NCBI GenBank assembly: GCA_016235675.1
Contig: JACRJN010000098.1
Span: forward strand, 1 to 55,656
DNA: 55,656 nucleotides
From: Candidatus Schekmanbacteria bacterium
GTDB taxonomy: Bacteria > SZUA-182
Reading direction: 5' to 3'
Part shown: positions 43,706 to 55,495 of the stretch, piece after piece
How the letters are laid out: each line of letters opens with the position of its first letter
How positions within the stretch are numbered: the stretch's first letter is position 1
The notes under the pieces: model-generated
Seen by the model: the letters and a program-made list of their open reading frames with translations, nothing else
Told to the model about the DNA's origin: nothing
The model's database searches: none
Position numbers and translations under genes: made by a program

Positions 43706-44266
43706 ATGAACCTGATAAGTGAAGATGAGATAAAAATCAATAAGCGCAGTGAAAAAGTCGTTTCAGGAGTATTTCTTTTACTCTTTTGGCTTGTCATATC
43801 TTTACCCCCGAATCTATTTTCCTTCCAAGGGATTTCTTTCCTTATTCAACATATAATTGTCGGCGGTATTTTATCGTATATTATCGTTCAGATAATCGAT
43901 CTTCCTGTATTTACCGCCGATGAAATCAAAGCGTTACACCTGCCTAACATTATCCGCTTAATAAAATACGCCTTTTGGCTGAGCTGGCAAATGGTTCTTG
44001 CCGGTGTCGATGTGGCCAAGAGGGTGATGCGTCCTGTCCCCTTAATTTCTCCGGGTCTGGTAAAGTTCCGCACTCCTTTGACTGATGATTTTCAAATAAC
44101 CTTAAACGCTAATTCCATTACCCTTACTCCCGGCACCATAACTATCGATGTGGAAAAAGATGAGCAAGGCAGTACTTTTTGGGTGCACTCGATTAGTATG
44201 GAAGGACTGGAGAGCGTTAAAAACGATAAGGGTTTTGTAAATAGAATATTAGCTATTTATAAATAA
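43706..44266 (+). CDS. mrpE: Mrp/Mbh antiporter subunit E (MbhA-like)
   Basis: A 186-residue MnhE-family protein, first gene of the operon. Hydrophobic segments (about 20-37, 45-70, 85-105) precede the characteristic soluble tail ITLTPGTITIDVEKDE followed by FWVHSISMEG. Subunit E is an essential accessory membrane part of Mrp-type cation/proton antiporters and the MbhA equivalent in membrane-bound hydrogenases. It precedes subunit F by 17 nt. Confidence 0.9.
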   Translation: MNLISEDEIKINKRSEKVVSGVFLLLFWLVISLPPNLFSFQGISFLIQHIIVGGILSYIIVQIIDLPVFTADEIKALHLPNIIRLIKYAFWLSWQMVLAGVDVAKRVMRPVPLISPGLVKFRTPLTDDFQITLNANSITLTPGTITIDVEKDEQGSTFWVHSISMEGLESVKNDKGFVNRILAIYK

Positions 44267-44283
44267 TTATAAGGTATCATATT

Positions 44284-44559
44284 ATGCTTACTGACGTTAT
44301 TCTCGCCTCAAAGGTCGTCTTGGTCATCCTCTCTATTACTATCTTTCTCTGTCTCTATCGGGCCATACTAGGCCCAACCGTATATGATCGTATTATCGGA
44401 ATAAATGTTATCGGCACTAAAGCCGTCGTTATGTTCGCTTTATTAGCGGTAATTTTCGGCAAGAGCTTTTTCTTCGACATGGCTTTGATTTATGCTTTGC
44501 TTTTATACGTCACAACGATCGCTTTTGTAAAATATATGGGATCGGGAAGGCTGGATTGA
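44284..44559 (+). CDS. mrpF: Mrp/Mbh antiporter subunit F (MbhB-like)
   Basis: A 91-residue MnhF-family protein with three TM helices. It contains LYRAILGPTVYDRIIGINVIG, where the GPTxxDRIIGxN segment is the family hallmark, and ends with FVKYMGSGRLD. It overlaps the next start by 4 nt if the TTG at 44556 is used. Confidence 0.92.
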   Translation: MLTDVILASKVVLVILSITIFLCLYRAILGPTVYDRIIGINVIGTKAVVMFALLAVIFGKSFFFDMALIYALLLYVTTIAFVKYMGSGRLD

Positions 44560-44903
44560 TTATGTTTATTATCGTCGGCATATTGCGTTTTTTGGCCGTA
44601 TTGCTGCTTTTGGCCGGAGCCTTCTTTTTTATCGCCGCAACGGTTGGGGTGATCCGTATGCCCGATCCTTATAACCGCGGGCATGTAGCCGGCAAGGGGG
44701 ATAGTCCGGGTTTTCTGTTCTGTCTTACCGGGGTTTGGCTTTATTGGCTGACTATCAGCCCGATGGAAAGCTTGCGCATATTGGCGATTATCATTTTTAT
44801 GCTCTTTGCTAACCCCATCGCGATTCATTGCGTGTTGCGCCTCTGTTTAAAGAACAAGGTGGGATTTGTCCCCGGCACAAAGATTATAGAAGAGGATAAT
44901 TGA
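44556..44903 (+). CDS. mrpG: Mrp/Mbh antiporter subunit G (MbhC-like)
   Basis: A 115-residue MnhG-family protein with three TM helices and the family motif GVIRMPDPYNRGHVAGKGDS. Two starts are possible: TTG at 44556 (GGAAGG 5 nt upstream, overlapping the mrpF stop) or ATG at 44562 (11 nt from the same Shine-Dalgarno). It is followed after 1 nt by the MbhD-like gene. Confidence 0.9.
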   Translation: MIMFIIVGILRFLAVLLLLAGAFFFIAATVGVIRMPDPYNRGHVAGKGDSPGFLFCLTGVWLYWLTISPMESLRILAIIIFMLFANPIAIHCVLRLCLKNKVGFVPGTKIIEEDN

Positions 44904-44904
44904 C

Positions 44905-45201
44905 ATGGATTTGTTGTCCTTATCCCATTTTATAGTTTTACTCTTTCTAATCGCTACGGCTCTGGCGGCGATTATCGTAGAGGATCTGCTCAGCGCCATC
45001 ATTATTTATAGTGCTTATAGTTTTACTATCGCCTTCACTTATTTGATTTTTCGCGCCAATGATGTCGCCATGACCGAGGCGGCGGTAGGAGCGGGGGTAA
45101 CCACTATATTGTTTATCGCCGCGTTTTGTAAGACCAAAGGGAAGGAAAGTGACTTAGTTAACCACGAAGCGCATGAAGGACACGGAGAAAAAACAAAGTA
45201 A
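44905..45201 (+). CDS. MbhD-like subunit (DUF4040)
   Basis: A 98-residue DUF4040/MbhD-type membrane protein, corresponding to part of the MrpA C-terminal region that is fused in canonical Mrp complexes. The segment FTYLIFRANDVAMTEAAVGAG then TTILFIAAF is diagnostic. The last 13 residues (NHEAHEGHGEKTK) are encoded by a dispersed ACCACGAAGC...ACGGAG repeat (about 45160-45188), so the native C-terminus appears to have been replaced or extended by repeat DNA. Confidence 0.88.
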   Translation: MDLLSLSHFIVLLFLIATALAAIIVEDLLSAIIIYSAYSFTIAFTYLIFRANDVAMTEAAVGAGVTTILFIAAFCKTKGKESDLVNHEAHEGHGEKTK

Positions 45202-45211
45202 GGATAAATCA

Positions 45212-45544
45212 ATGAAACGCTCGGTAGCGGTTATCTTATTTGCGGTTTTTGCCGTTTGTATGATCGTCGTGGTATTGCATCTCTACCCGGTAGGAGATCC
45301 TCGCTTGCCCGGTTATGCCGATTTTATCCCGGCGGAAATACCCTCGGAGGAGATACCGCGTCGGGCGGATTCGGTGGCTACTTATTATAACCGTAATTCG
45401 GCAAGAGATGTGGGGGGCACTTGTGTAATCGCCTCCGTTATTCTTGATTATCGCGGTTATGATACGCTGTATGAGGCGACCGTGCTTTTTACCGCGGTTA
45501 TCGCCTGTTTGGCGTTAATCGGCAAGGATCATCACCATGAATAA
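45212..45544 (+). CDS. MbhE-like subunit (MrpA C-terminal/MnhB-like)
   Basis: A 110-residue membrane protein starting at ATG 45212 (AAGGA 8 nt upstream); the frame upstream lies in repeat DNA. It has an N-terminal TM (about 5-23), a periplasmic loop with EIPRRADSVATYY, then DVGGTCVIASVILDYRGYDT and LYEATVL, the MbhE signature. It ends GKDHHHE. It overlaps the mrpB-like gene by 8 nt. In canonical MrpA this module is fused to a NuoL-like domain. Confidence 0.87.
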   Translation: MKRSVAVILFAVFAVCMIVVVLHLYPVGDPRLPGYADFIPAEIPSEEIPRRADSVATYYNRNSARDVGGTCVIASVILDYRGYDTLYEATVLFTAVIACLALIGKDHHHE

Positions 45545-45995
45545 CAGTTTGATAGTTAAAGTGGTATCGCAAAAGATGGTTCCCTTTATCATCATGTTGG
45601 GAGCATCTATCATCTTACACGGTGCGGCTACACCGGGAGGCGGATTCCAGGGCGGGGTGGTGATCGGTGCGGCCTATATCCTCTTTGCTTTGGGAATAGA
45701 CGCCAAAACCGCCAGATTGCGGCTTCCGGTGATCAAGGTAAAAATTGTAGAGAGCGCCGGAGTGCTCATCTATGCCTTTACCGGCCTAGGGGGGATTTTG
45801 TTGGGGTCTAATTTTTTGGCTAACAAGATAGTCCTGTTTCCCCCCCAGGGGGAGCCGGGCGGGTTGTTTGGCGGCGGGACGTTGATCCCCATTACAATCG
45901 GGGTGGGGATACACGTAGCCTGTACCGTAGCCAGTTTGTATTATGCCTTTGTGGAATATGAAGGGGAACCGAAGCCGGATAAGGAAACAGAGTAA
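45537..45995 (+). CDS. mrpB: Mrp/Mbh antiporter subunit B (MbhF-like)
   Basis: A 152-residue MnhB-family protein with four TM helices. The motif HGAATPGGGFQGGVVIGAAY is the family signature (PGGGFQGG). The end is a polar tail EPKPDKETE. It is followed by a dispersed GTCATTGCGAG element inserted before mrpC. Confidence 0.92.
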   Translation: MNNSLIVKVVSQKMVPFIIMLGASIILHGAATPGGGFQGGVVIGAAYILFALGIDAKTARLRLPVIKVKIVESAGVLIYAFTGLGGILLGSNFLANKIVLFPPQGEPGGLFGGGTLIPITIGVGIHVACTVASLYYAFVEYEGEPKPDKETE

Positions 45996-46030: not shown

Positions 46031-46107
46031 GTCATTGCGAGCTTAAGCGAAGCAATCTCCATGCGTGCATAGAGATTGCTTCGGCGATAAGGCTGCCTCG
46101 CAATGAC
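46031..46107. repeat. GTCATTGCGAG element inside the antiporter operon
   Basis: A 77-bp element with arms GTCATTGCGAGCTTAAGCGA and AGGCTGCCTCGCAATGAC, between mrpB and mrpC. It is the uninterrupted form of the element at 10540-10690; another copy is at 14465-14539. Confidence 0.9.
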
Positions 46108-46180
46108 ATTTTTCAGCCGAAACAAATTTAGTGCTCAGGTCTCTGTATTTCTACGCTACCAAACATTAAGAGGAAAATCA

Positions 46181-46561
46181 ATGATTGCCCGTTTCGATTA
46201 CATCGCAGCCGTCATTTTATTTTCCATCGGGTTGTATGCCCTGGTGGTCAAGCCTAATCTGATTAAAAAACTGATCGGGTTGAATATTATCGAAACCTCG
46301 GTTTACTTGTTTTTAATCGCCAGCGGCGACGTTCGTTTGGGGATATACACCAATCAATGGGCGGCGTCCAATGTAATCGACAACCCGCAACGGGCGGTTC
46401 AGGGGTTGGAGCCGATGATTAATCCCATCCCATCGGCCTTGGTCTTGACGGCCATTGTGGTCAGTGTTTGCGTGACGGCGATAGCTTTAAGCGTGGTAGT
46501 CAAACTCTATCAACATTACGGCACCCTGGACGCCAGGGAAATTGCCAGTTTGAAAGGGTGA
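46181..46561 (+). CDS. mrpC: Mrp/Mbh antiporter subunit C (MbhG/NuoK-like)
   Basis: A 126-residue NuoK/MnhC-family protein with three TM helices, including KLIGLNIIETSVYLFLI and the PSALVLTAIVVSVCVTAIAL segment typical of MrpC. The start at ATG 46181 has AAGAGGA 7 nt upstream; the ORF upstream runs into the repeat. The stop overlaps a GTG start of the next gene. Confidence 0.92.
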   Translation: MIARFDYIAAVILFSIGLYALVVKPNLIKKLIGLNIIETSVYLFLIASGDVRLGIYTNQWAASNVIDNPQRAVQGLEPMINPIPSALVLTAIVVSVCVTAIALSVVVKLYQHYGTLDAREIASLKG

Positions 46562-48228
46562 TCCATTTGTTCTCGTCCGCGTCAGATAACGGTTCCCACT
46601 TACAGGTTTTAATCCCTGTTATGTTGATATGCACCGCTTTAGTCCTGCATCTCATCTACTATTGGCGTCCCCGCATTTGCCCCTACATTGCCACGGGCAT
46701 TATTTCTCTCTCCTTTATAAGCGCTTTGATTCTATTGGTTAAAGTTATTCATAGCCCTAATGGCTATTTAGAGTATTTTGCAGGCCATAGCTGGAGCGGC
46801 CAAAGGTATCTGGCCAGCGGCCAGCCCATCGGAATTGTTGTGCGAACCGATCTGTTCGGGGCATTAATTGCCGCGTTGGTTACCGGGTTAGGCACACTGG
46901 CAAGCATCTATTCCAAACACTATATCCCGCATACTATAAAAACAAGCAACATCGGATATTACTACTGTTTGTTGGTATTGATGATAGCCGGAATGGCGGG
47001 AATCTGCCTGACCGGGGATTGCTTCAATTTTTACGTCTTTCTGGAAGTCGCCTCGATTAGTTCCTACGGATTGGTGGCTATGCCGCAAACCAAGCAATCA
47101 TTAGAGGCGGCTTTCAAATATATGGTGGTAGGGGCGCTGGGGTCTATTTTACTGGTATTCGGCATTGTACTGTTGTTTTCCGCTACCGGCACCTTGAATA
47201 TGGCTTATGCCGCCCAGCAGGTGCACAAGATTGTAACCGCACCGCCGGGCAACCCATTGCACAACTTCAGGCATTTGGTCTTTGCTTCCCTTGGTATGTT
47301 TATCATCGGTTTGAGCGTTAAATCAGCTTTCTTTCCCGCCCATGCCTGGCTGGCCGATGCCCACCCCGCTGCCCCTTCCTCCATCAGCGCATTACTATCC
47401 GGCTTAATGGTCAAATCCACCGGGGTATTTTTGTTCATCCGTTTCTTATTTACCGTCTTCGGTCTTCATAAGCATGAATACGGGATGTTGCTGGCTCCCC
47501 TGCTCATGATAATTGCCGTTATCACTATCCTCGGCGGATCGGTTTTCGCCATTGCCCAGAACGACATCAAGCGTATGCTGGCATACTCCACCGTTGCCCA
47601 GATGGGTTATATCCTGATGGGGGTGTCGTTAATCAGTCCGGCGGGATTGGAAGGCGCTATTTTGCATATATTCAATCACGCTTTGATGAAATCTCTCTTG
47701 TTCATGAGCGCCGGGGCACTGATCTACAAAACCGGCATCCGCGATATAAGGGAGATGTCCCGTATCGGTTACCGAATGCCGGTTACCATGGTCTGCTTCA
47801 CTGTGGCGGCCATGTCGATGATCGGGATTCCCCCCTTAAACGGATTCATGAGTAAATGGGCGCTGGCCAAAGCCGCTTTGGACGCCAATTTGCCGATGCT
47901 GGTAGTGGTGTTGCTGATTTCCAGCTTATTGAATGCGGTTTATTATTTCCGGGTGGTGGGAACAGCCTTTTTTGGCCGGGCACAGCAGCATGAAGAAATA
48001 CCGCATGCCGATATTATCCGAAACAATCACGGTCACAGCCTGCTGCAAAACAGTTACGGCTATTATAGTCTTGCCGATAAAGACAGACCTAACGAAAACG
48101 AGCAGGAATTGCCGTGGGGAATGCTTATGCCCTTGATTATCTTAGCCGCAGCGATACTCTTTTTCGGGGTGAAGGTAGGGATTTTACGGGAGATAATCAG
48201 GCCGGCGGTTCAGGTGCTTTGGCGGTAA
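46558..48228 (+). CDS. mrpD: Mrp/Mbh antiporter subunit D (MbhH/NuoN-M-like)
   Basis: A 556-residue proton-antiporter-like protein with about 14 TM helices. Conserved charged residues are present: Glu163 in TM5 (FLEVAS), Lys255 in TM7 (SVKSAFFPAHAWLADAHPAA) and Lys286 in TM8 (GLMVKSTGVF). NDIKRMLAYSTVAQMGY is the family signature. A His/Asn-rich loop precedes the last TM. The start is the GTG overlapping the mrpC stop, or the TTG at 46567, which has a better-spaced AAAGGG. It is the last gene of the mbhA-H-like order. Confidence 0.9.
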   Translation: MIHLFSSASDNGSHLQVLIPVMLICTALVLHLIYYWRPRICPYIATGIISLSFISALILLVKVIHSPNGYLEYFAGHSWSGQRYLASGQPIGIVVRTDLFGALIAALVTGLGTLASIYSKHYIPHTIKTSNIGYYYCLLVLMIAGMAGICLTGDCFNFYVFLEVASISSYGLVAMPQTKQSLEAAFKYMVVGALGSILLVFGIVLLFSATGTLNMAYAAQQVHKIVTAPPGNPLHNFRHLVFASLGMFIIGLSVKSAFFPAHAWLADAHPAAPSSISALLSGLMVKSTGVFLFIRFLFTVFGLHKHEYGMLLAPLLMIIAVITILGGSVFAIAQNDIKRMLAYSTVAQMGYILMGVSLISPAGLEGAILHIFNHALMKSLLFMSAGALIYKTGIRDIREMSRIGYRMPVTMVCFTVAAMSMIGIPPLNGFMSKWALAKAALDANLPMLVVVLLISSLLNAVYYFRVVGTAFFGRAQQHEEIPHADIIRNNHGHSLLQNSYGYYSLADKDRPNENEQELPWGMLMPLIILAAAILFFGVKVGILREIIRPAVQVLWR

Positions 48229-48450: not shown

Positions 48451-49950
48451 TTGACAAATATGCTTTTACTGACCATCTTTTTGCCCTTTGTTATAACATT
48501 GGTCATCCTGTTATTGGGTGAAAAGCGCATCTATGCACGCAACGGCATTTTGATGGCTATCAGTATCTTTGAATTTGTAGTAGTCCTGAGTCATTCCCAG
48601 GCTGTTTTAGCCGGTAAATTATCCCCCATGACTTTGGCCGATCTGGACTTTTTCACCCTTACCTTCAATGTCGATCCCTTGAGTTTGCTTTTAGGCAGCC
48701 TGATCAGCTTTTTGTGGATATTCACCACCTCTTATTCCATCGGTTACATGTCGGGAGAACATGCCCTGGTGCGCTACTTCTCCTCCCTGACCGTCTGCCT
48801 GGGGGCGACCATGGGCATAATTTTCTCGGCCAATCTCATGACTTTCTTTATTTTCTATGAGATTTTAACCATCGCGGTCTATCCCCTGGTCATTCATGAG
48901 GAAACCGAAGAGGCTTACCGCGCCGGGGTGGTGTATATGGTTTATTTGCTCAGCGGCGGAACTTTGGTTTTCTTCGGAATAATTTTAACTTATTACCTGA
49001 GCGGGGGCAACATTACTTTTACGATTGGAGGGATTCCCCAGTTGGTCAAGGCAAGCCCGGCGATGCTCTATCTGTTGCTCTTTTTATTTTCCGCCGGATT
49101 CGGCGTCAAAGCGGCCATCATCCCCCTGCATGTTTGGCTGCCCAGGGCGATGGTGGCGCCTACCCCGGTGAGCGCCTTATTACATGCGGTGGCGGTGGTG
49201 AATATGGGATTGTACGCTTTCATCCGCATGATATACAACATTTTCGGCCCCGCGCTTTTCGCTCATTTGAAGATGAACAATATTCTGGCCGTCCCCGCGG
49301 TTTTTACCATTATCTTAGCGGCTATCGCGGCCTTGCGTATGGATAAGATCAAGAAGTTATTGGCCTATTCCACCATTAACCAATTGAGCTATGTTATTTT
49401 AGGCGCCAGTTCCCTGCATCCGATCGCCCTTTTAGGAGCCTTGGTGCATCTGGTTTATCACTCGGTAATGAAAATCACCCTGTTTTATTCCGCCGGAACG
49501 ATTATCAAAAGAACGGGGAAAACCAAGATCAGGGAGATGAGCGGACTAGCCAAAACGATGCCTGTAGCCTGCGCCGGCTTTGCGATCGGGGCTTTAGGCA
49601 TATCGGGATTGCCGCCTATCGCCGGATGGGTCAGCAAATGGTATTTTGTGAAGGGTTTTCTGGAACTGGAACGCCCCTGGCTAGGAGCGGTTTTCATCAT
49701 CAGCACTATTTTGGAGATCGGTTTTTTCGCTCCGCCGGTTCTTTACGCCTATTTTGGAGGGAATATCGGCAGTCAGCAAGTACAAGAAAATAAGCACACA
49801 AATGCGGATGACGATTGCCGGTTCGAAGCTCCATTAGACATGTTGATTCCCTTGGCTGTAGTAACGATACTTTCCGTAACCTTTGGATTATTCGGTTCTT
49901 TGCCCTTTGTATTCGGCAGAGCGGCGATAAATTCGTTGCTGCCTAAGTAG
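48451..49950 (+). CDS. Second antiporter-like subunit (NuoL/M/N family)
   Basis: A 499-residue, ~14-TM proton-antiporter-like protein. TTG at 48451 is preferred over ATG 48460 because AAGGGAT sits 7 nt before it. It has Glu137 (FYEILT), Lys220 (GVKAAIIPLHVWLPRA) and IKKLLAYSTINQLSY. At the TM8 position where the other three subunits of this operon have Lys, this one reads LLHAVAVVNMGLY (Asn251), a NuoL/MrpA-like pattern. It may therefore supply the NuoL/MrpA-type half-channel missing as a fused MrpA in this operon. Confidence 0.88.
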   Translation: MTNMLLLTIFLPFVITLVILLLGEKRIYARNGILMAISIFEFVVVLSHSQAVLAGKLSPMTLADLDFFTLTFNVDPLSLLLGSLISFLWIFTTSYSIGYMSGEHALVRYFSSLTVCLGATMGIIFSANLMTFFIFYEILTIAVYPLVIHEETEEAYRAGVVYMVYLLSGGTLVFFGIILTYYLSGGNITFTIGGIPQLVKASPAMLYLLLFLFSAGFGVKAAIIPLHVWLPRAMVAPTPVSALLHAVAVVNMGLYAFIRMIYNIFGPALFAHLKMNNILAVPAVFTIILAAIAALRMDKIKKLLAYSTINQLSYVILGASSLHPIALLGALVHLVYHSVMKITLFYSAGTIIKRTGKTKIREMSGLAKTMPVACAGFAIGALGISGLPPIAGWVSKWYFVKGFLELERPWLGAVFIISTILEIGFFAPPVLYAYFGGNIGSQQVQENKHTNADDDCRFEAPLDMLIPLAVVTILSVTFGLFGSLPFVFGRAAINSLLPK

Positions 49951-50227: not shown

Positions 50228-51772
50228 ATGTTCGACGCCAACATGCTTCCTTTCTGGGCGGTTTTGCTGCCCGTTTTTTCTACTATAGCCATACCCTTTT
50301 TAAGTGATAAAAATCGGCATTATTATACCAGCCTGGTTACCTTCATTACGCTGATTATCGTTTCCAGTATGTACCATTTTATTCTTCAGGGGCAGCAATT
50401 ACAGCAGGTAATCACTACCGGTCTGGGGTTTAATTTTATCTTCCGGGTGGATGCTCTCGGTTTTTTGGTGGGCATTATCTCCATCATCCTTTGGTTTCTC
50501 GCGGCTATTTACGGCGTCGAGTATTTGCGGGACACCCATTCTTTGGGTCGCTACAACATGTTTTCCCTCTTTTCCCTAAGCGGCATGTTGGGAGTAGTTT
50601 TCACCGGCAACCTTTTTTCTCTATACATCTTTTTCGAATTATTGAGCATCGGTTCGGCCATCCTGGTGTTTCATGAAGAGACGCCGGAGGCGATGCGGGC
50701 CGGATTTAAATATCTGTTTTTGGGGATTTCCGGCGGGTTAGTGCTTTTGTTTGCCATTATTGCAACTTATCAAATCACCGGACACGGCGATTTAAATACT
50801 TTGGGTGTTGGATTAAAGGAAAGCCGCTGGCTGCCCTACATCTTTTGGGGATACATCATCGGCTTCGGGGTAAAGGCGGGGATGGTACCGGTTCATATAT
50901 GGTTACCGTCGGCACATCCGGTAGCCCCCTCGCCTGCCAGCGCTTTGCTTTCCGGGATTATGATCAAAGCCGGGGCGTACGGAATTTTCCGCACCGTATA
51001 CAGCATCGTGGGTAGCGAAAGCATTATCGGTTTACATTCCAATCTGACATTGATTCTGCTGATTTTATCTTTGATTACTATCTTTCTCGGCTCGGCGGTG
51101 GCGATAACTCAGGTGGAAATAAAACGTATGCTGGCCTATTCCAGCATTTCCCAGATTGGGTATGTGATTATGGGAATAGCCCTCATTTCCCATAAGGCAA
51201 TGATGGGAAGTCTGATGCACATTTTCGGCCACGCTTTGATGAAAGGTGCGCTGTTCCTTTGCGCCGGGGCAATCATACATCAAACCGGCCTGCGGCAGAT
51301 CAAAGATTTAAGAGGATTGGGGCAGCGTATGCCTTTGACCATGACGGTTTTTACCATCGGCGCTCTTTCCATGATCGGCATCCCACCCATGGTGGGGTTT
51401 GTCAGCAAATGGTACCTGGCTTTGGGGGCGCTGGACGTGATGGATAAACACATTTATTGGCCGGGTTGGGGGGTAATCTCTCTGGTGATGTTGCTGATAA
51501 GCAGCCTGTTAAATTTGATTTATTACGGCCCGATTATTATCGGCGCCTGGTTTTCGCCCCAATCGGAAACAACCGCTCATAGCACCGGCCACGGCAATCC
51601 CCATCACAGCAGCGGTCAGGAGATTGCAGGGGCGGCGCGTACCACCGACGATCCCAATTTATGGATGATGCTGCCCTTGATTGTTCTGGGCTTTTCAGTT
51701 TTATTCTTCGGGATTTTTCCGGGATTCCCCCTGGATTTAGCGGGAATGGTCAGTAAGGTGTTTTTGCCGTGA
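50228..51772 (+). CDS. Third antiporter-like subunit (NuoN/M family)
   Basis: A 514-residue, ~14-TM protein with Glu137 (FFELLSIG), the TM7 Lys in GFGVKAGMVPVHIWLPSAH, and TM8 Lys247 (IMIKAGAYGIFR). VEIKRMLAYSSISQIGY is the family signature. A His/Gly/Ser-rich hydrophilic loop (SETTAHSTGHGNPHHSSG) precedes the last TM. AGAGGAG provides a strong Shine-Dalgarno. It is separated from its neighbours by dispersed hairpins. Confidence 0.9.
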   Translation: MFDANMLPFWAVLLPVFSTIAIPFLSDKNRHYYTSLVTFITLIIVSSMYHFILQGQQLQQVITTGLGFNFIFRVDALGFLVGIISIILWFLAAIYGVEYLRDTHSLGRYNMFSLFSLSGMLGVVFTGNLFSLYIFFELLSIGSAILVFHEETPEAMRAGFKYLFLGISGGLVLLFAIIATYQITGHGDLNTLGVGLKESRWLPYIFWGYIIGFGVKAGMVPVHIWLPSAHPVAPSPASALLSGIMIKAGAYGIFRTVYSIVGSESIIGLHSNLTLILLILSLITIFLGSAVAITQVEIKRMLAYSSISQIGYVIMGIALISHKAMMGSLMHIFGHALMKGALFLCAGAIIHQTGLRQIKDLRGLGQRMPLTMTVFTIGALSMIGIPPMVGFVSKWYLALGALDVMDKHIYWPGWGVISLVMLLISSLLNLIYYGPIIIGAWFSPQSETTAHSTGHGNPHHSSGQEIAGAARTTDDPNLWMMLPLIVLGFSVLFFGIFPGFPLDLAGMVSKVFLP

Positions 51773-51807: not shown

Positions 51808-51885
51808 GGTAGCGCAGGGCTTTAGCCCTGCATCCGGTAGCACAGGCATCTTGCCTGTGACATGTGCTTCCAGCCTGTGCTTACC
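51808..51885. repeat. GCAGGGCTTTAGCCCTGC and GGTAGCACAGGC hairpins
   Basis: A GCAGGGCTTTAGCCCTGC hairpin and a GGTAGCACAGGCATCTTGCC...CAGCCTGTGCTTACC element (51836-51885), between the third subunit and the small membrane protein. Confidence 0.85.
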
Positions 51886-51903
51886 AAATACAGGGGTTTT
51901 TTT

Positions 51904-52416
51904 ATGAAAAGGCTTGTCTTTTTCTTTATATTTATTTGTCTGGTTCAGCTTGTCTTAAGTTACGGTTCGGCAACAACTCAACCCACTGTTGAAGAGGGAC
52001 ACATGATCGAAGAATTGGCGACCGAACGAACCGTCGTCCCAAAACCCGCTGAAGAAATACATGAGCCGGCGGAAGACTCTGAGGGAAATCATGCCACGCC
52101 GTATATCTATTATCTTAACTGGGGCTTTCTGGGGTTCACCTTTATCGCCGCCTGCTTTTATTGCCTCTGGGTTTACGAAAAAGGGCGACCTAAAAATGAA
52201 GGGCAGGGCTTGCCCGCTTTGTTTATCATCCTGGTGATTGCAATGTATACGCTGAATCAAATGCCGGAAGTACAGCGCCATTTCGATCTGGCCAAGCATA
52301 GCTTTGTAGACGGTTATCATGAATCAACGACGATCGCTTTTTTCAAATTTTTTTATAAGATGGCTTTGGGCGTTTTCCTGATGATTTACGGCTTGATTGG
52401 CCGGGAGCATCATTGA
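51904..52416 (+). CDS. Small membrane protein of the antiporter operon (170 aa)
   Basis: I do not recognise this family. Start at ATG 51904 with AGGGG 8 nt upstream; the frame from 51862 passes through a hairpin repeat. An N-terminal signal peptide or TM (1 to about 20) is followed by an acidic periplasmic stretch (about 25-65, Glu/Pro-rich) and then three hydrophobic segments (about 70-92, 100-115, 145-165). It ends GREHH. Position between two antiporter-like subunits suggests an accessory or assembly role in the same complex. Confidence 0.75.
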   Translation: MKRLVFFFIFICLVQLVLSYGSATTQPTVEEGHMIEELATERTVVPKPAEEIHEPAEDSEGNHATPYIYYLNWGFLGFTFIAACFYCLWVYEKGRPKNEGQGLPALFIILVIAMYTLNQMPEVQRHFDLAKHSFVDGYHESTTIAFFKFFYKMALGVFLMIYGLIGREHH

Positions 52417-52465: not shown

Positions 52466-52588
52466 ATCGTTTTCTAGTTGTCATTCCCGAATGGTGTTAT
52501 CGGGAATCTGATTTTAACTGTTTGAAAAACCAGATTCCCGATTAAGGCGTTCGGGAATGACAGTTTGCCATATCAACTAGAAAACGAT
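52466..52588. repeat. Nested palindrome before the last antiporter subunit
   Basis: A perfect 15-bp outer inverted repeat, ATCGTTTTCTAGTTG (52466-52480) and CAACTAGAAAACGAT (52574-52588), encloses a GTCATTCCCGAATGG...GGCGTTCGGGAATGAC element (52480-52561). The element creates a spurious upstream extension of the next reading frame. Confidence 0.92.
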
Positions 52589-52606: not shown

Positions 52607-55495
52607 ATGGTAATAAAAAAATATTGGGCATTGGGGTTGGCGATATTCCTGTTTTTTATTTTTATTGCCGGAAATGTCGGTTACTTACAGAGGGAATCCC
52701 ATGCCTCTGCGGTTGCCGCCGTTGAACAAAGCGCTCATAATGAACATGGCAACTATCCGATTACCGCCCAATCTCATAGCAATCCACACGAGAGCCTGCC
52801 CCAACTGATAACGCCGCAAATCAGCCCGCAATCCCGGTTACCTCTCGGGCTAATCTGCTTGCCTTTGATCGGCTCTGTATTGATTTTAATTTTCAGTTCT
52901 TCGCAACGGGCAAGGAATATCATCAGCGTAAGTACTGCCGTCATCTCCTTCCTGATTATCATCGCCATGTTTGACCCGGTAGTGAGGGGGATAACGGTAA
53001 ATGGCGAATTATATAAGGGACTGTTCTGCACCCTGCCCTTATTCCGCGGGTTCGACGCCACCTTCAAAGTCGACCCGGCGGCATTGCTGATCGCCGGGGC
53101 TACGGTTTTTCTCTGGATACTGTCCACTATCCACGCCATATCCTACATGACTATCGAGGAAAAACGGGTACGCTACGAAACCTTTGTCCTGGCAAGTCTG
53201 GCGATGAATCTAGGGGTCTTGATGGCCGGGGATTTTCTCACCCTGTTTTTCTTTTTCGAAGGGATGGTCATCTTTCCCTATTCCCTGATCGCCCACAAAG
53301 AGGACAAAGGGGCGCTGTACGGCGCCAATATGTATCTCTATCTGGGAGTGGCTACTTCGCTGTGCCTGTTTTTCGGCATCATGCTTCTGCACCATTTTAC
53401 CGGCAGTATCAGCATCCGTCCGCTGGCGGTGGAAATCAACGCCAATGTTCCCGCAACATTAAAGTATGTACTGGCCGCTTTAATGATTGCCGGATTCGGC
53501 GGAAAAGCGGGCTTGTTTTTCGAACATATCTGGCTGCCGCAAGCTCACCCGGTGGCGCCTACTCCCGCAAGCTGCCTGCTCTCCGGCGCCATGATCAAGG
53601 CCGGGGCTTACGGTATTTTCCGGGTAGCCAATATGATCTTCATCCCCCCTGATTGGGGTGCAACCCTGGAGTGGCTGACGGTACGGCATGTTGGCTATGC
53701 CTTGATCTGGATGGGTGTGATTACCATGTTCTTCGGAGTGCTGAACGCCCTGATTTCCGGCAATTCCAAGCGGATGCTGGCCTACCATAGCGTCAGTCAG
53801 ATGGGTTACATTGTTCTGGGTATCGGCTGCGCCGCCTATTTAGGGGCTGATGGAGCGATGGGACTGGCCGGGGCGCTATACCATATCGTCAATCACGCCC
53901 TGTTCAAAGCCAGCCTCTTTTTGACAGTCGGTGCGGTGTATTATCGCACCCATGAACTGGATATGTATAAGCTGGGCGGGTTGTGGCGCAATCTTCCTTT
54001 CACCTGTGTGGCCATGTTTATCGCCGCCTGCGGGATTGCCGGGATTCCCGGTTTTAACGGATTTGCCAGCAAGACCTTGCTGCATCATTCCATCCTGGAG
54101 GCATACGAGCACTCAGCCCATTATTCCGCCGACGGCCTGCCCGATTTCAAGCTTAGGATCGCCGAGATTCTCTTTATGATCACCGCCGGGGGTACCTTTG
54201 CCTCCAATATGAAGCTCTGGGTTTTCGATTTCCTGGGAGAGCGTCCGGAAAAATACAAGGATGTGCAGCCTGAACCGTTATCCATGAAAATCGCCCTGGG
54301 ACTGGTTTCCGTGGCCATTCTCTTTATCGGGCTTAATCCCAACTGGATGCTGGAAAACCTGATTGGCCCAGCTTTGGCCTATTTCCATTTCAACCCCGCC
54401 TCCCATCCTTATCATATTTTGTATAACGTTCATGCACCGCTGGGGATGCGTTCGATTATCCCCATCCTCTATAACCCGATCAGCGGTCTGTTTTTCTCCG
54501 ATACCGAGGTAGTGCATAATTTGCTGGGTGCCGGGGATGCGGTAATCTTTGGCGGTACCATTTTTATTTTCGGCTTGCGGTTAGGCTGGTTCCACAGTAT
54601 GGTACCGGCCTGGCTGACCGTAGGGTATTATTATAATATTGCCTATCAAACCTTGAAGCGTTCTTGTCATACCGTTTTTGCTAAACTCGATGCAGCTTAT
54701 AATGATCTGGTAGAGTCGATTATTTTGGGACGCAACATTTCCACGGTTTTATTAAAATCTAAAGTCGACCCGGAATTATGGGATTTGATCGGCAAGCTGG
54801 AGGAAAAATTCAGCGAGGCAGTTAATAGTGTTATTTATGGGCAGAACGTACTGGCAGTAATTCGACAAGCGAACACCCAGGAAAAAATTCTTAATGAGAG
54901 TGAAAAACAGGTTTGGGATGAATTAAAAATACTGAGTGAAAAACAGGTTTGGGATGAATTAAAAATATTGGAGGATAAATACGGCCATGTATTTGATCGC
55001 GCCATATTCGGACATGGGACAAGAGCCTTGCTTAAAGACCATGAGCAAGAAAAAGTAATTTGGCAGGAACTCAGACGCCTGGAAGACAAATACGGTGCGA
55101 TTTTCGACAAGATGATTCTTCATAAAAACTTACAGCATTTGGTGGAAGAACATCAACAACCGGCCAAAGCAAAATCGGATTTTACCCGCCTTTGGGAGCG
55201 TTTCAGTGACTTTGACCAGTTAAAATACGACACCAAATTAGATGTAGCGCTCTTCGGTAATACCAATCCCGAGGCCGAACCCGAGGAAAACTGGTTTGGC
55301 CGGTTCTGCCGTCGTGTCAGCAGCATTCATACCGGAGACGTCAGTCACTACGTCAGTTGGATTGTGATAGTGTTAGTTGTGGTGATTACTGTTTTAGTAG
55401 GGAAACTCTATATATCGTCTCTGCTGGGCATAATCTTGCTGGTCAGCGTAATTCTTTTTCTGATAGTTCTGGCATCGCTTTTGGCGCACTCGTGA
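52607..55495 (+). CDS. Fourth antiporter-like subunit with repeat-bearing C-terminal extension
   Basis: A 962-residue protein. The start at ATG 52607 has AGGA 7 nt upstream; an earlier TTG (52565) lies in the repeat. After an N-terminal TM and a His-containing loop, residues about 75-690 form a NuoL/M-like antiporter with Glu218 (FFFEGMV), Lys300 (GFGGKAGLFFEHIWLPQAH), Lys331 (AMIKAGAYGIFR) and NSKRMLAYHSVSQMGY. Residues about 694-890 form a soluble region of roughly 37-residue repeats starting at 694, 731, 788 and 825 with pattern LExKYxxxFDxxIxGxNxxxLL, and a weaker one at 872. Two TM helices close the protein. A 36-bp tandem duplication sits at 54898-54969. The extension is not part of any antiporter family I know. 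Confidence 0.9.
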   Translation: MVIKKYWALGLAIFLFFIFIAGNVGYLQRESHASAVAAVEQSAHNEHGNYPITAQSHSNPHESLPQLITPQISPQSRLPLGLICLPLIGSVLILIFSSSQRARNIISVSTAVISFLIIIAMFDPVVRGITVNGELYKGLFCTLPLFRGFDATFKVDPAALLIAGATVFLWILSTIHAISYMTIEEKRVRYETFVLASLAMNLGVLMAGDFLTLFFFFEGMVIFPYSLIAHKEDKGALYGANMYLYLGVATSLCLFFGIMLLHHFTGSISIRPLAVEINANVPATLKYVLAALMIAGFGGKAGLFFEHIWLPQAHPVAPTPASCLLSGAMIKAGAYGIFRVANMIFIPPDWGATLEWLTVRHVGYALIWMGVITMFFGVLNALISGNSKRMLAYHSVSQMGYIVLGIGCAAYLGADGAMGLAGALYHIVNHALFKASLFLTVGAVYYRTHELDMYKLGGLWRNLPFTCVAMFIAACGIAGIPGFNGFASKTLLHHSILEAYEHSAHYSADGLPDFKLRIAEILFMITAGGTFASNMKLWVFDFLGERPEKYKDVQPEPLSMKIALGLVSVAILFIGLNPNWMLENLIGPALAYFHFNPASHPYHILYNVHAPLGMRSIIPILYNPISGLFFSDTEVVHNLLGAGDAVIFGGTIFIFGLRLGWFHSMVPAWLTVGYYYNIAYQTLKRSCHTVFAKLDAAYNDLVESIILGRNISTVLLKSKVDPELWDLIGKLEEKFSEAVNSVIYGQNVLAVIRQANTQEKILNESEKQVWDELKILSEKQVWDELKILEDKYGHVFDRAIFGHGTRALLKDHEQEKVIWQELRRLEDKYGAIFDKMILHKNLQHLVEEHQQPAKAKSDFTRLWERFSDFDQLKYDTKLDVALFGNTNPEAEPEENWFGRFCRRVSSIHTGDVSHYVSWIVIVLVVVITVLVGKLYISSLLGIILLVSVILFLIVLASLLAHS
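54898..54969 (+). repeat. 36-bp tandem duplication in coding sequence
   Basis: Two adjacent 36-bp units (54898-54933 and 54934-54969) differ at one base and encode SEKQVWDELKIL twice, in frame. The near-identity implies a recent duplication in the C-terminal extension. Confidence 0.92.

Follow-up and report, generated by a model that had tools for sequence, protein, structure and literature searches.

The role of the lateral helix (HL) of complex I as a piston, a brace or an assembly clamp has been debated for more than ten years, and we know of no way to study it in E. coli other than by damaging it. In MrpA and NuoL, HL connects TM15 with TM16 along the cytoplasmic surface and acts as a brace for the antiporter subunits, and the characterised Mrp complex of A. 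flavithermus is a dimer (PMC7419157). For work on Mrp, that study employed KNabc, a laboratory E. coli strain deficient in antiporters. Truncation of the NuoL C-terminus through or past HL results in a fragile, nearly inactive complex I (PMC3274701). Longer versions of the segment are also on record: 26-aa HL inserts have been described in 2M complex I and Ca. Manganitrophaceae, and such an insert has been postulated to span one extra pump (PMC9040806, citing Chadwick et al. 2018). The highest antiporter-like subunit number that we found published is five (PMC9040806), and the open literature searched yielded no description of Mrp-type complexes with four antiporter-like subunits.

Here, we describe a NuoL/MrpA-type subunit with an expanded lateral arm, encoded in a window of 55,656 nucleotides that makes up all of contig C56; the draft genome to which it belongs comprises 190 contigs and 2.98 Mb. 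Natural arms in this slot range from none to about 340 residues, with whole-module steps between near relatives, and this series makes the role of the lateral helix testable by comparison. The finding further hints at the existence of Mrp-type complexes with four antiporter-like subunits, and it brings up a candidate for a new accessory subunit.

The operon and its 962-residue subunit

The operon encodes MrpB, MrpC, MrpD, MrpE, MrpF and MrpG components together with MbhD- and MbhE-type parts (Table 1). Judged by this gene content, it probably specifies an Mrp-type complex with four antiporter-like subunits: three MrpD-like proteins of 499–586 aa and the 962-aa protein, the only one in the operon to carry a TM15–arm–TM16 tail. 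No genes for NuoB, NuoC, NuoD or NuoH are found upstream within the operon, and the contig stops 161 bp past the arm gene. The locus resembles MrpA systems (6z16, 7qru, 7d3u) in its complete Mrp operon and in the best structural match of its arm protein, and the HL of MrpA likewise acts as a brace (PMC7419157). Unlike in those systems, the MrpA N- and C-terminal parts are not fused but the MbhD and MbhE portions form separate genes, three MrpD-like subunits replace the single MrpD, and the arm is much longer and made of repeats. Complex I-type clusters lie on two other contigs of the same genome, with six antiporter-like subunits on C50 (L032) and at least five on C24 (L033).

The length of 962 aa presumes translation from the ATG at 52607, while the open reading frame contains a TTG further upstream at 52565. 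That the protein has a complete antiporter body, as the first-pass annotation had it, is borne out by a 14-TM Proton_antipo_M core of the NuoL/MrpA type (PF00361, 176.9 bits, residues 207–498), which is modelled by AF2 with pLDDT values mostly above 90. The best structural match of the full-length model is MrpA (7qru_A; Z 44.3, rmsd 2.5, 562 residues), followed by NuoL chains with Z of about 42–43; the alignment spans model residues 76 to about 693, thereby covering TM15 as well as the beginning of HL, and does not include the arm past residue 694. With the NuoL model TIGR01974 (NCBIfam), the protein scores 160.7 bits, far below the curated cut-off of 407.5 bits, which none of the subunits in its own genome passes despite 19 antiporter-like proteins. 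Two extra C-terminal TM helices had also been proposed. Both helices are present (914–933 and 939–961), yet the first is TM16 itself and only the second is additional. This additional helix recurs in the nearest class relatives, and the C-tail of these proteins comprises 54–62 residues versus 26–35 in HL-type paralogues.

Table 1. Features of the operon and of the 962-aa subunit (window positions, stop codon included for the 962-aa subunit).
Feature	Position	Strand	Evidence or remark
MrpE	43706..44266	+	PF01899, 100.7 bits
MrpF	44284..44559	+	PF04066, 56.3 bits
MrpG	44556..44903	+	PF03334, 72 bits
MbhD-like, MrpA C-terminal part as separate gene	44905..45201	+	PF13244, 66.7 bits
MbhE-like, MrpA C-terminal part as separate gene	45173..45544	+	PF20501, 33.3 bits
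MrpB	45537..45995	+	PF04039, 90.1 bits
MrpC/NuoK-like	46103..46561	+	PF00420, 86.2 bits
MrpD-like antiporter subunit	46468..48228	+	PF00361, 225.1 bits
MrpD-like antiporter subunit	48451..49950	+	PF00361, 199.8 bits
MrpD-like antiporter subunit	50228..51772	+	PF00361, 224.4 bits
Small membrane protein, no assigned family	51862..52416	+	goes with long arm in clade
NuoL/MrpA-type antiporter-like subunit, 962 aa, expanded lateral arm	52607..55495	+	PF00361, 176.9 bits
Proton_antipo_M core, residues 207–498	53225..54100	+	PF00361, 176.9 bits
TM15, residues 633–659	54503..54583	+	AF2 helix; aligns with TM15 region of homologues
Expanded lateral arm, residues 660–907	54584..55327	+	all-helical prediction, low confidence
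Repeat unit 1, residues 694–715	54686..54751	+	10/11 pattern; 20.8 bits
Repeat unit 2, residues 731–752	54797..54862	+	10/11 pattern; 21.3 bits
In-frame 36-bp tandem duplication, SEKQVWDELKIL twice	54898..54969	+	35/36 identical; between units 2 and 3
Repeat unit 3, residues 788–809	54968..55033	+	11/11 pattern; 25.5 bits
Repeat unit 4, residues 825–846	55079..55144	+	10/11 pattern; 23.5 bits
Doubtful fifth unit, residues 870–891	55214..55279	+	6/11 pattern, inside shuffle range
HTGDVSHY motif (from residue 908), NuoL [QH]TG...Y signature preceding TM16	55328..55351	+	
TM16 (914–933) and one additional helix (939–961)	55346..55489	+	AF2

A repeat array in the slot of the lateral helix

In canonical NuoL, the C-terminus presents FDxxxIDGxVNG, then the [QH]TG...Y motif and then TM16. 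For canonical NuoL sequences that a search of 60 genomes had yielded, the interval from TM15 to the motif is 70–83 residues in 22 of the 24 measured; the exceptions are L166 (106 residues, with a doubled HL module) and L149 (30 residues, probably because the hydropathy rule set TM15 at the wrong place). The 962-aa protein shares the TM15–lateral segment–TM16 topology and the motif, and its repeats fill precisely this interval, which is expanded to 250 residues versus about 78 in the canonical case (+172). Since the motif HTGDVSHY follows the arm, 250 residues past TM15, the array is no addition to the end of the protein. The first-pass annotation had seen here a soluble repeat domain grafted onto the subunit. 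A grafted domain is not supported, given the position of the repeats in the HL slot and the lengths of homologous intervals, which grade into it (about 78, 106, 125, 154, 231 and 250–340 residues; within the family of the 962-aa protein 125, 125, 154, 231, 250 and up to 340). A known soluble domain was likewise rejected, all Pfam and NCBIfam matches to the arm being below cut-off and not credible.

The repeat region is an extreme, about threefold-lengthened version of a known part, the lateral helix. Among the options offered initially, the best supported is that of a stalk similar to the lateral helix of NuoL. The accompanying remark that no such extension is known from any Nuo subunit went too far, given the 26-aa HL inserts in 2M complex I and Ca. 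Manganitrophaceae (PMC9040806, citing Chadwick et al. 2018); with such inserts on record for complex I with additional pumps, the arm represents an extreme form of an established device. With NuoL/Nqo12/ND5, the protein has in common the TM15–TM16 position, the TM16 motif and the antiporter fold, and its paralogues carry the FDxxxIDGxVN module. It differs from them by the length of the interval, its 37-aa units, the extra helix past TM16 and the low score with the NuoL model.

The repeats themselves follow the consensus LExKYxxxFDxxIxGxNxxxLL and start at residues 694 (LDAAYNDLVESIILGRNISTVL), 731 (LEEKFSEAVNSVIYGQNVLAVI), 788 (LEDKYGHVFDRAIFGHGTRALL) and 825 (LEDKYGAIFDKMILHKNLQHLV). All four units reported initially are real, as they match 10, 10, 11 and 10 of the 11 pattern positions, while the best score in 1,000 shuffles of the arm was 8. 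Their 37-residue spacing could be confirmed as well: the autocorrelation of the arm sequence peaks at lag 37 (0.12 versus a shuffle maximum averaging −0.61 ± 0.08), a value equalled in none of 200 shuffles. A weaker unit suggested at residue 872 is best placed at 870, where its 6 of 11 matching positions do not rise above the shuffles.

The full-length AF2 model, a monomer, renders the arm as a string of helices (residues 688–705, 722–744, 780–801, 812–848 and 852–870) in register with the repeats, with pLDDT values mostly of about 40–72. Predicted alone, the arm is all helix, with a pLDDT of 49 and a pTM of 0.22. The hydrophobic moment clearly exceeds that of shuffles only in helix 722–744 and is borderline in the others. 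These models, built with only nine sequences, lend no support to a compact, self-standing arm domain. It appears quite improbable that the arm folds back into a helical-hairpin bundle with a regulatory role as a compact cytoplasmic domain. The AF2 helices of 18–37 residues, separated by short gaps and in register with the repeats, would suit such a bundle, and 37-aa units could provide helix pairs; yet neither model shows confident tertiary packing, and a packed repeat fold would poorly tolerate single-module changes of 24 or 26 aa as well as unit lengths that vary among near relatives (24, 28, 29 and 37).

Relatives, paralogues and origin of the repeats

The same kind of arm is found in members of the same class (L046, L050, L062, G001, G006 and G004, where the arm protein is interrupted by a contig end) as well as in the Elusimicrobia MAG L047. 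A frameshift or assembly artefact, which had been named initially as a possible source of the repeats, is ruled out by at least six independent genomes in which the arm is an open frame. Built from five proteins, a unit HMM of 25 columns detects units with up to 28.5 bits in three held-out genomes, whereas no shuffle exceeds 8 bits. It scores the four units of the 962-aa protein at 20.8–25.5 bits; since these belong to its training set, the matches in the left-out relatives are more telling. Across genera, the unit sequence is kept at 15–28 bits. The period of the arm is 24 in four class members, 28 and 29 in others, and 37 in the 962-aa protein. Arms with periods of 25–26 occur in Bacillota, archaea and complex I-type operons, and the unit HMM detects no sequence similarity between these and the class unit. 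Natronincola peptidivorans (L080), a relative that can be cultivated, likewise has a repeat arm, with units of 25 aa. Coriobacteriia (L077, L090, L107 and others) have arms of about 300–360 residues in the same slot with little or no clear periodicity.

An HMM of the canonical NuoL HL module (FDxxxIDGxVN) has no match in the arm of the 962-aa protein. It does find two tandem modules in the paralogue G000:C50 from the same genome (FDKEVIDGVVN and FDKYVIDGAVN, 17.6 bits each, about 26 aa apart) and one module just ahead of TM16 in each of C24, G003, L054 and L070, the weakest match being C24 with 6.4 bits (no shuffle passed 8 bits). In the NuoL L166 (G032:C102), the HL is lengthened by 26 aa through tandem duplication of the same module. 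This spacing in C50 and L166 equals the 26-aa step given for 2M complex I and Complex_I_3 of Ca. Manganitrophaceae (PMC9040806; Chadwick et al. 2018). Based on their position and on the paralogues, the repeats of the 962-aa protein are likely to descend from the HL module rather than to replace HL. A length difference of exactly 26 residues separates two archaeal proteins that have 788 identical residues, and exactly one block of 24 residues distinguishes the proteins of two congeneric bacteria; both differences fall within the arm. Hence, the arm evolves by gain and loss of whole helical modules.

In a tree of the core, the 962-aa protein groups with L046, then with HL-type paralogues (C50, C24, G003) and arm-less Nitrospirota proteins; long arms recur across several lineages. 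Arm-less relatives comprise L042/L063, L043, L053, L056 and L057. The 36-bp tandem duplication between units 2 and 3 looks recent and suggests ongoing change of the array in the lineage of the 962-aa protein. Such a duplication, the variable number and length of the units and the arm-less relatives L053, L056 and L063 are what a neutral expansion of a low-constraint linker with no specific function would leave behind; however, conservation of the units across genera, the open frame of all copies and the recurrence of long arms in several lineages, accompanied by one small membrane protein, make this explanation very improbable.

The small membrane protein encoded immediately upstream of the arm gene has no Pfam or NCBIfam match above the curated cut-offs. 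An HMM of this protein matches every arm operon of the clade whose upstream part is present and gives weak matches in archaeal arm operons. It has none in the arm-less L042/L063, L043, L053, L056 and L057, and the protein is also absent alongside the distant arm-bearing proteins of Bacillota (L074 and L088) and Coriobacteriia. The association with the arm is suggestive only, since operons lacking the arm are shorter as well, and the loci are relatives of one another. The protein is a candidate for a new accessory subunit.

Arm length, pump number and proposed role

We consider it probable that the HL segment of this NuoL/MrpA-type subunit, lengthened by duplication of helical modules, works as a modular cytoplasmic brace. 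This reading builds on the TM15–TM16 position, the repeats and their periods, the gain and loss of whole modules, the complete Mrp operon with its four antiporter-like subunits and the HL modules of the paralogues. By homology to NuoL and MrpA, the arm would run along the cytoplasmic side from TM15 to TM16. We infer an extended course parallel to the membrane, in which successive amphipathic helix segments could rest on the four antiporter-like subunits of the row at their cytoplasmic surface. What underlies the extra length might conceivably be the small Mrp subunits, the second protomer of a dimer or a neighbouring complex. The arm would keep the antiporter subunits joined and mechanically coupled, while TM16 would anchor its far end. 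Several observations speak against a brace, namely the low pLDDT of the arm, the lack of an HL-module HMM match in it, the restriction of a clearly raised hydrophobic moment to one of its helices, and its length: as a single straight helix it would measure about 375 Å, far more than the three operon partners need, and there is no simple scaling between antiporter subunit number and arm length.

The latter point emerges from a comparison of operons. In complex I-type operons, the interval amounts to about 78 residues with three antiporter subunits, to 125 (G003, G005) but 154 (C24) with five, and to 228–231 with six. Mrp-type operons with four antiporter-like subunits have 199–300 residues, and possibly Rnf-linked two-subunit units of Bacillota 211–213. 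While the three- and five-subunit complex I-type operons, except C24, fit about 26 aa per subunit, a simple ruler with arm length proportional to subunit number fails as a general rule, as two subunits go with 211–213 residues and six with 228–231. The operon of L166 shows only three antiporter genes despite the doubled HL module. Since the ruler fails, the additional residues must either be folded up or lie over some other structure. The locus is akin to 2M complex I and Complex_I_3 (PMC9040806; Chadwick et al. 2018) in that HL is lengthened in complexes with extra pumps, but it differs in its array of at least four units, its Mrp-type operon and a length that is not proportional to pump number.

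Alternatively, the arm could serve as a docking site and hold on to a second complex, or else to a soluble or redox partner, instead of bracing its own row. A length far beyond what three neighbours require would be explained in this way, and the 211–213-residue arm of a two-antiporter unit directly 3' of rnf-looking genes in Bacillota, the complex I operon that comes after the Mrp operon in the Elusimicrobia MAG, and the small membrane protein that accompanies the arm in the clade are in line with it. Nonetheless, docking is unlikely: the operon is isolated in several class relatives as well as in a complete archaeal genome, lacking both redox genes beside it and further antiporter-like genes in the genome (G061, G065), and neither a binding domain nor a conserved surface motif was found in the arm with Pfam and NCBIfam. 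A broader proposal can be put forward only tentatively. The lateral helix may be a modular, rapidly re-lengthened spacer, with 24–29 aa (as helix, about 36–43 Å) per antiporter subunit, and long arms may strap Mrp-type pump rows to other complexes such as a second Mrp protomer, Rnf or complex I. If so, strapped pump rows would permit unusual H+:cation or redox coupling ratios.

Some of the loci with arms deserve mention in their own right. Two Bacillota MAGs (L074:4889-11875 and L088:3795-11907) encode rnf-looking genes, identified by eye, followed by two antiporter-like genes, which are the only ones in their genomes; the second carries an arm of near-identical 25-aa repeats. These units possibly represent an Rnf-linked antiporter. 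The archaeal loci L060 and L061 (Methanosarcinales/Methanocellales) are Mrp-type operons with four antiporter-like subunits and arms of 26-aa repeats, and the complete archaeal genome of this set has zero antiporter-like genes beyond the operon. In the Elusimicrobia MAG UBA5214 (L047:947-20083), a four-antiporter Mrp operon precedes a complex I-like operon that includes an FAD/NAD oxidoreductase–ferredoxin subunit, with nine antiporter-like genes in a row.
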